Origin: Lachnospiraceae bacterium
GTDB lineage: Bacteria > Bacillota > Clostridia > Lachnospirales > Lachnospiraceae
Direction: 5' to 3'
DNA length: 64,000 nt
Assembly (NCBI GenBank): GCA_017470935.1
Contig: JAFUXG010000022.1
Location: forward strand, 36,461 to 100,460
The position numbers and the translations under genes are program-made. Below are positions 4,901 through 5,835 of the stretch, piece after piece. The first letter of the stretch is position 1. Each line of letters opens with the position of its first letter. Below the pieces are notes generated by a model. That model ran no database searches and was not told the origin of the DNA. It saw only the letters and a list, made by a program, of their open reading frames with translations.

Positions 4901-5139
4901 CTGGAGAAGGTATTTTTTTGTTACTTATGGGGTGTAGCAAAAAAACTATATAATGTATTGGGGGGGTTACAAGTATTATTATATGTATTTTTGTCTGAAA
5001 GTGTTCACAAACAATCATTTTTTTTTGAAAAACTTTTGTGCAATTAGTCAAAAGACTTTGTCCATAAGCTCTAAAATAGGCTGATTTTTGTGTAAATTGT
5101 ACCAAATCGCATTTCTCGCATGACATTTTTTACAAGACA

Positions 5140-5423
5140 ATTACTGTTTAGTTCAGTTTTGAAACCGTACGCCGTCTGCCTTGCACAGACACCCTCAGGT
5201 CAGATGGCGGGTTGGACGGGATAAGAACTTCTAGGTGCCCCGAGAACACTTTGATACCGTCCGTGGCAAGGTGCTTAGTCGCCATCCATGGCTCCGGCGC
5301 ACCTGCTCGGCATCCATGCCTCGCATCCACTAGGTTTCTTACGGGACACCAAGAAGTTCTAATCCCTTTCCAAATGCCATCTGACCTGAGGGTATCTGCA
5401 CAAGGCAGACGGCTGTTTGTTGG
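5140..5423 (-). ncRNA. Structured element 1: long hairpin with conserved 68-nt core
   Basis: A non-coding element I do not recognise. The outer stem pairs 5171-5208 with 5376-5413 (38 positions, 3 mismatches, all G-U wobbles if the minus strand is transcribed). An inner stem pairs about 5219-5240 with 5341-5366. The apical core (5263-5330) matches element 2 at 64 of 68 positions, in the opposite orientation. In minus sense the core can fold as GGC-AUGGAU-GCC followed by a stem GCAGGUGC/GCACCUUGC that encloses GCC-AUGGAU-GGC. It is closed by GUGG/CCAC. The 3' flank CTAAACAGTAAT (5151-5140) and a CCA..AACAGC 5' flank recur in element 2. A DNA-level palindromic mobile element remains possible. 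Confidence 0.6.
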
Positions 5424-5462
5424 CAAAAGTTACTTAATAAAACGTAAGTATCGAACAATTAT

Positions 5463-5491
5463 TTGAATGATTAGATTTTACAAAGTATATT
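5463..5491 (+). promoter_or_regulatory. Predicted promoter of structured element 2
   Basis: TTGAAT (5463-5468) and TATATT (5486-5491) are 17 bases apart. Transcription would begin near 5498, just before the first stem arm of element 2. I saw no equally good promoter facing element 1 on the other strand. Confidence 0.5.
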
Positions 5492-5509
5492 GTGTTATAG
5501 TTTCGGTAT

Positions 5510-5797
5510 CCACGAACAGCAGGTAAGCTGATAGTATGGTGCGTTTTGTATGACATCTGGGAGGTGATGTAGAGTTTCTTAGTATCCCGATAAAAACCCA
5601 GCGGATGCGAGGCATGGATGCCGAGCAGGTGCGCCGGAGCCACGGAGGGCGACTAAGCACCTTGCCGCGTACGTCATCAAAGCTTTAACGGGATACTTAG
5701 AAACTCTTATCACCGTACAGCTAGTCATACAAAACGTACCATGCTATCAGCTTACCTGCGTACGACATACAAAAACAAAAGTTCACTAAACAGTAAT
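5510..5797 (+). ncRNA. Structured element 2: same core, unrelated stem arms
   Basis: Sister of element 1 on the opposite strand. The outer stem pairs about 5519-5554 with 5723-5758 (36 positions, 2 mismatches, both G-U wobbles in a plus-strand RNA). An inner stem joins GAGTTTCTTAGTATCCCG to its near-complement at 5690-5707. The arms share no sequence with element 1. The core (5601-5668) differs at four positions. Two of these form a compensatory change: the closing pair U-A in GUGG/CCAC becomes C-G in GCGG/CCGC. The second hairpin loop changes from AUGGAU to ACGGAG and so keeps ANGGA. CTAAACAGTAAT (5786-5797) marks the 3' flank. Confidence 0.6.
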
Positions 5798-5812
5798 ATT
5801 ATGCATTTAAAT

Positions 5813-5835
5813 AGCGCCCGCACAATGCGGGCGCT
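5813..5835 (-). terminator. Terminator-like hairpin downstream of ftsH
   Basis: A perfect 10-bp GC-rich stem (AGCGCCCGCA/TGCGGGCGCT) with a CAA loop, 6 bases past the ftsH stop codon. The T tract is weak on the minus strand (ATTTAAAT). It also lies just after structured element 2 on the plus strand, so it may stop transcription from both sides. Confidence 0.6.

Follow-up and report, generated by a model that had tools for sequence, protein, structure and literature searches.

The locus lies at positions 5140 to 5797 of the window, that is, of the whole 64,000-nucleotide stretch of a Lachnospiraceae genome that we analyzed, and forms a 658-bp MITE-like unit bounded by an outer inverted repeat and carrying two divergent RNAs. 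Its ends are a left terminal inverted repeat of 22 nt (5140–5161, plus strand), which matches the end pattern exactly, and a right one of the same length (5776–5797, minus strand), assigned from its 86% complementarity to the left repeat and from the end-pattern counts. These repeats correspond to the flanking boxes of a preliminary description, which was made from the sequence without database searches. With up to three mismatches allowed, the end pattern occurred in these two places only in the window, where 0.37 matches are expected by chance. The two elements between the ends point in opposite directions, as originally described, and both fall inside the unit. Element 1 (5210–5374, minus strand) and element 2 (5556–5721, plus strand) matched the Rfam model of the TwoAYGGAY RNA, RF01731, with 74.6 bits (E = 9.2e-11) and 88.3 bits (E = 7.4e-14), respectively, each over the whole model (positions 1–168 of 168) and against a curated cut-off of 43 bits.

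Each RNA is enclosed by a long outer stem. The 5' arm of element 1 (5376–5413, minus strand) pairs with its 3' arm (5171–5208, minus strand) through 35 Watson–Crick and 3 G-U pairs out of 38, and the 5' arm of element 2 (5519–5554, plus strand) pairs with its 3' arm (5724–5759, plus strand) through 34 Watson–Crick and 2 G-U pairs out of 36, so that every mismatch is a G-U wobble when read in the sense strand. Within the RNAs, the sequence and the Rfam alignment place hairpin 1 (GGC-AUGGAU-GCC) and hairpin 2 (GCC-AUGGAU-GGC) of element 1 at 5309–5320 and 5281–5292 of the minus strand, and hairpin 1 (GGC-AUGGAU-GCC) and hairpin 2 (GCC-ACGGAG-GGC) of element 2 at 5611–5622 and 5639–5650 of the plus strand. 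The shared core that had been noted is an ungapped block of 72 nt, identical at 68 positions (element 1, minus strand 5337–5266; element 2, plus strand 5594–5665), and the reported change of its closing pair, from U-A in element 1 to C-G in element 2, was confirmed by eye from the sequences. The spacer contains two weak sigma-70-like promoter matches, one leading into element 2 (5463–5491, plus strand, 9/12 matches) and one into element 1 (5484–5512, minus strand, same scan and same caveat); two such matches in 5100–5830, where 1.3 are expected, are not significant. No intrinsic-terminator pattern was found for the window unit, and the ORFs inside it are small, reaching up to 92 aa.

The preliminary description had taken the elements for a probable undescribed RNA family, a view ruled out by the assignment of both to RF01731. 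Both elements are full-length members of this family and carry two AYGGAY-type loops on a long stem, except that the loop of hairpin 2 in element 2 reads ACGGAG. TwoAYGGAY was found in 2010, in a study whose table rates it ‘RNA? y, cis-reg n, switch n’ (Weinberg et al. 2010, PMC2864571); Rfam types RF01731 as Cis-reg, against the ‘n’ for cis-regulation in that table. Rfam 15 groups TwoAYGGAY and CsrB in a common clan, CL00106 (the E. coli csrB was scanned in the same run), and a link of TwoAYGGAY to CsrA was proposed from motif matches (PMC4333381). With an Rfam family, the CsrB clan and this earlier proposal, the RNA is therefore neither undescribed nor without a hypothesis. TwoAYGGAY is a structured RNA whose function is without proof to date.

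That the elements are structured RNAs, as had been claimed, was borne out by the Rfam matches, by covariation and by the mismatches in the outer stems. In the sense strand, element 1 folded at −161.1 kcal/mol (z = −14.3) and element 2 at −141 kcal/mol (z = −13.4), and none of the 200 shuffled sequences did as well in either case. Covariation extends to further copies: in an alignment of 29 diverse sequences, which leaves out L134, 31 of the 35 predicted pairs showed a double-sided change in at least one sequence, and the GGA of hairpin 1 was invariant in all 29. For the other tests we used a set of 129 copies, comprising the full-length matches from the genus and family listings within the examined stretches. 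Close pairs in this set were divergent in 16 of 17 cases and tandem in one. The copies of a single genome were also compared with one another, and in all three genomes so examined the core was much less variable than the arms, with variable columns numbering 2/72 in the core and 67/278 in the arms of G201 (p = 8e-6), 4/75 and 38/215 in G358 (p = 0.007), and 4/72 and 52/264 in G147 (p = 0.004).

The balance of G-U and A-C mismatches was counted in the 117 of the 129 copies that had the required 30 nt of flank on both sides. Well-paired outer stems contained 94 G-U and 28 A-C mismatches in all 117 copies, and 39 against 19 in 49 non-redundant copies (p = 0.012). The inner stem showed no G-U bias (5 G-U, 6 A-C), and a looser test that included flanking DNA, run before the restricted version, showed no excess (125 G-U, 156 A-C). 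The excess in the outer stems suggests that RNA read in the sense strand of the core is under selection. The exclusive use of G-U wobbles held within the two window elements but not across copies, where A-C mismatches are present and the inner stem is unbiased. The earlier contention that RNA rather than palindromic DNA is under selection was sustained as far as the signals of RNA structure go, but the unit is a mobile element, and selection on palindromic DNA and on RNA may therefore both operate.

Mobility of the unit is very probable. The own genome yielded 19 TwoAYGGAY matches, 18 of them above the cut-off, including other copies of the two-RNA unit (L002), and 71 matches to the terminal-repeat pattern compared with 2 for the reversed pattern. 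Among the end matches listed for this genome, at least 12 lie 117–140 nt inside the start of a contig, the pattern that repeat-induced assembly breaks would leave. Across the genus, TwoAYGGAY is present in 11 of 26 genomes, with 1 to 25 copies each. One genome, G002, contains whole two-RNA units of about 665 bp that show 85–93% identity from site to site and have sharp boundaries at the repeats, along with units that have the same ends and one RNA but a different second half; complete G002 units in the examined stretches measure 385–829 bp. A comparison of L089 with L094 revealed, by eye, about 60 extra and apparently palindromic bases in an otherwise matching G002 unit, possibly a nested small repeat. 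In L081 and L101, one unit flank is common to G002 and G010 over the 16 nt compared and the other differs, as if copies had undergone recombination.

The same core recurs under at least five kinds of unit ends, as judged by eye. Single-RNA units of about 300–340 bp in G201 and G147 have ends of type GTGTCAAAAGGT, unlike the own-genus repeats; G147 has a second kind of unit with other ends, and by eye G006 and G029 have still others. Ends of type GTGTCAAAAGGT also bound intervals of about 59, 92, 145 and 189 bp in G201, too short for the full RNA and its arms. In G358, a single-contig genome from another family, seven copies are 93–99% identical; a script detected direct flank repeats of 6–10 nt at five of the seven and none in mismatched-flank controls, and by-eye alignment of the remaining two gave matches at 9/9 and 6/8 flank positions. 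Flank repeats of at least 6 nt accompanied 2 of 6 units in G201 (10% in controls). Own-genus units had them in 1 of 22 cases compared with 5% of controls, with 2.4 nt observed and 2.8 nt in controls, so that no target duplication is seen in these units. The copies in G033, G062, G111 and G156 are too divergent for shared unit ends to show and provided no evidence of mobility. An end-pattern search of contigs returned, among the matches listed, many unrelated bacteria, which we took for chance. Plasmid or phage cargo was considered and set aside, as blastn of the 658-bp unit, a search that reaches close relatives only, gave no match in either collection.

Bacterial MITEs are short, have terminal inverted repeats, occur in many copies and are flanked by direct repeats. 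The units described here are likewise short, dispersed in many copies and bounded by terminal inverted repeats, with no evident transposase gene inside and, in G358, with direct flank repeats. They differ from MITEs in that they carry a conserved structured RNA, that several kinds of ends occur with the same RNA, and that the own-genus kind shows no target duplication. We found no earlier report of TwoAYGGAY riding in MITE-like elements in library searches or in the main text of the 2010 study, in which the words transposon, inverted repeat, multiple copies and mobile are all absent (PMC2864571).

A transposase bearing the ends of the unit was not found at IS256-family loci, among neighboring genes or in a wide end-pair search. 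The IS256 family was examined as a candidate partner and set aside: matches occurred in four of five genomes, and no pair of the unit's ends surrounded the seven loci checked. By eye, no plus and minus ends lay 1–5 kb apart in G002 and G000 among the matches listed, and none lay 1–3 kb apart in G201 and G147, so that no autonomous copy was seen at these distances; this absence carries little weight because assemblies break inside units, and the unit-finding scripts, limited to 1.1 kb, are silent on longer autonomous copies. Twenty neighboring genes were scanned, ten with NCBIfam and ten with Pfam, and one IS3-like transposase was found among them (L366, 5859–6830; rve and HTH_21 domains), at a distance of 374 nt from a G002 copy whose ends are degenerate. 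No Y1 (RAYT-type) match was found among the ten genes scanned with Pfam. About 380 nt from another TwoAYGGAY copy lies a CRISPR array with Rfam CRISPR-DR7 repeats (L344, 1540–2160).

Examining the positions of the units relative to genes revealed a close association with stop codons in one genus. In G000, G002 and G010, the three genomes that have the window's type of terminal repeat, we collected 105 unit ends, which include a few chance pattern matches (e.g., two in L356), and 70 of these had an ORF of at least 110 codons reading toward the unit. In 41 of the 70 cases the ORF stopped within −6 to +1 nt of the unit end, with TAA, TAG or TGA, and in three further cases it stopped inside the terminal repeat. 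For random positions in those flanks the count of such stops was 1 in 1622. Intergenic TAWA sites gave 46 in 313, compared with 41 of 64 unit sides in the same distance range (p = 4e-15), the control being drawn from G002 stretches only and the observed sides from three genomes. Nine of ten abutting G002 genes that we scanned matched their family model almost to the C-terminal end, among them QueA, AroA, ProS, LeuS, fumarate hydratase alpha and CarB; the scores of a sugar kinase and an RluA-type protein, both counted among the nine, fell below the curated cut-offs, and the tenth had no strong family match. On the other side of the unit, a gene starts 19–28 nt away in 8 of 20 stretches. On three sides in G002 the terminal repeat itself supplies the codons for the final residues (IAV) together with the stop, and two stretches (L352, 4684–5346; L353, 4789–5174) contain convergent gene pairs in which both stops abut the unit. 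The window copy is not of the abutting kind, the stop of an ftsH-like gene lying 45 nt away, and abutment was seen on none of 13 sides in G201 and G358 and on one of nine in G147. Open spans of at least 100 codons across the joined flanks were counted as well (14/17 own-genus, 1/6 G201, 0/7 G358) and, lacking a control, were set aside.

The best functional reading of the RNA, and in our judgment a fairly probable one, is the 2014 proposal that its GGA loops bind CsrA, which would make CsrA the putative partner. Both window copies have two GGA-loop hairpins each, in keeping with the two or more of CsrB-type RNAs, a trait that is not universal across the 129 copies. The commonest triplet at the center of six-base loops in this set is GGA (119), followed by TTT (55), and at least one six-base GGA loop was found in 122 of the 129 sense strands compared with 16 of the 129 antisense strands. 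Two or more were found in only 48 copies and none in 7, counts that miss five-base loops. Both loop-picking scripts undercount, one by missing these five-base loops and the other by often choosing the wrong hairpin, and we therefore prefer the 29-sequence alignment. In some copies, namely those of G033 and hairpin 2 of L076, the GGA is truly absent from the loop. CsrB itself is a single RNA, from a single gene, with many CsrA sites. The RNAs described here share with the CsrB/RsmB type (RF00018) the GGA hairpin loops and the clan CL00106; they differ in that each RNA has two sites and that mobile copies are numerous and dispersed, and their binding of CsrA is putative.

CsrA and TwoAYGGAY co-occur across lineages. 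The own genome has a CsrA match (7.8e-26). In the family, CsrA was detected in 44 of 45 carriers and in 110 of 254 other genomes (299 genomes; Fisher's test, p = 1.7e-13; two CsrA matches below the curated cut-off), and in 42 of 43 carriers when only RNAs above the Rfam cut-off were counted. In the class, the corresponding numbers were 31 of 36 carriers and 94 of 355 others (391 genomes; p = 2.2e-12), 23 of 27 for carriers above the cut-off (p = 4.6e-9), and 25 of 30 carriers versus 86 of 345 others with the own family excluded (p = 2.7e-10). The carrier searches used stricter filters, by which weak matches are lost, and the RNA and CsrA searches were taken to cover the same 299 and the same 391 genomes on the strength of equal numbers and handles. 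Some observations count the other way. Nine of the 36 class carriers scored below the Rfam cut-off, which we counted against the CsrA reading, and in the own genus CsrA was detected in 7 of 11 carriers compared with 13 of 15 non-carriers (with one non-carrier match under the cut-off). The ten carriers without detectable CsrA, four of which belong to the own genus, are also without detectable FliW, and their genomes are 70–98% complete, consistent with either assembly gaps or true absence. Flagella are a confounder of the co-occurrence: flagellin is present in all 45 family carriers, and the presence of CsrA and that of flagellin differ in only 8 of 299 genomes, so that any factor linked to motile lineages could be the partner.

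This confounding leaves room for the hairpins to serve the transposon itself, as RNA or DNA, in the form of a REPIN-like structure for transposase recognition or for regulating transposition, in which case the CsrA co-occurrence would reflect lineage. The units shared between copies in the closely comparable genomes (G002, G201, G147, G006 and G358) fit such a role, as does the resemblance of the inverted pairing and the hairpins to REPINs, described as two inverted palindromic units that are extragenic and present in many copies (PMC3116915); by that description the units here stand apart in their length of about 300–800 bp and in having, at their core, an RNA that belongs to a known Rfam family. 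We nevertheless consider this explanation unlikely: with one core in at least five kinds of ends, several transposases would need to recognize the core, single-stranded DNA recognition does not predict an outer-stem excess of G-U over A-C, and the GGA loops lie mostly on one strand.

Still less probable, in our assessment, is a role of the units as mobile bidirectional terminators or stabilizers of mRNA at gene ends, with the core merely shaping the hairpin. The very stable stems and the stop codons at unit edges (41 of 70 own-genus incoming ORFs versus 46 of 313 TAWA sites) would suit that role, but the intrinsic-terminator pattern is missing, the core and loops are more conserved than the arms, and the units of G201 and G358 lie away from stop codons (0/13 sides). 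Hardly any credence is left for the preliminary interpretation as a free-standing, immobile pair of undescribed RNA genes. The structure and covariation behind it are real, but as to the novelty of the family and a single-gene character it is already refuted, by RF01731 and by copies that are dispersed, have ends in common and are flanked by repeats.

The reading that we favor, at slightly better than an even chance, is that the feature is a non-autonomous MITE-like element carrying two divergent TwoAYGGAY RNAs that present CsrA sites; the sequence evidence suggests a mobile element that spreads CsrA binding sites. Such an element would move by a transposase supplied in trans. Each of its RNAs would display two GGA-loop hairpins on a very long and probably protective stem, with CsrA binding the GGA loops. 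We infer that the RNAs are transcribed and bound by CsrA and that element or host may benefit. Scattered through the genome, the copies may serve as CsrA decoys, or may provide CsrA sites within transcripts that read through from neighboring genes. Owing to the opposite orientation of the two RNAs, any transcript that runs in from one flank or the other would carry one RNA in sense and the other in antisense, which would make the unit orientation-proof for read-through. Among 60 single units outside G000, G002 and G010, a sole incoming gene reads antisense in 24 and sense in 13, with both in 16 and neither in 7; this antisense excess was counted against the favored reading.

More tentatively, and at somewhat less than even probability, the pattern may be wider: transposable elements of Clostridia with differing ends, and so probably with differing transposases, may have repeatedly acquired or kept one CsrA-sequestering RNA. 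Transposition would then spread dozens of CsrA sites, in one genus directly behind the stop codons of full-length genes, and would rewire post-transcriptional control as copies accumulate. The placement at stop codons raises a separate question, namely how the units choose, or survive at, such sites. What emerges is an RNA already known, carried by a vehicle of which we found no previous description; the mobility of the unit and the structure of its RNA are well supported, and CsrA is a likely partner. If our reading is true, an RNA family orphaned since 2010 gains both a vehicle, in transposable elements, and a probable partner, in CsrA, and bacteria would offer a case in which a mobile element scatters the binding sites of a global RNA-binding regulator. 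Because related genomes of one genus carry anything from 0 to 25 copies, the consequences of CsrA-site load would then be directly open to study.
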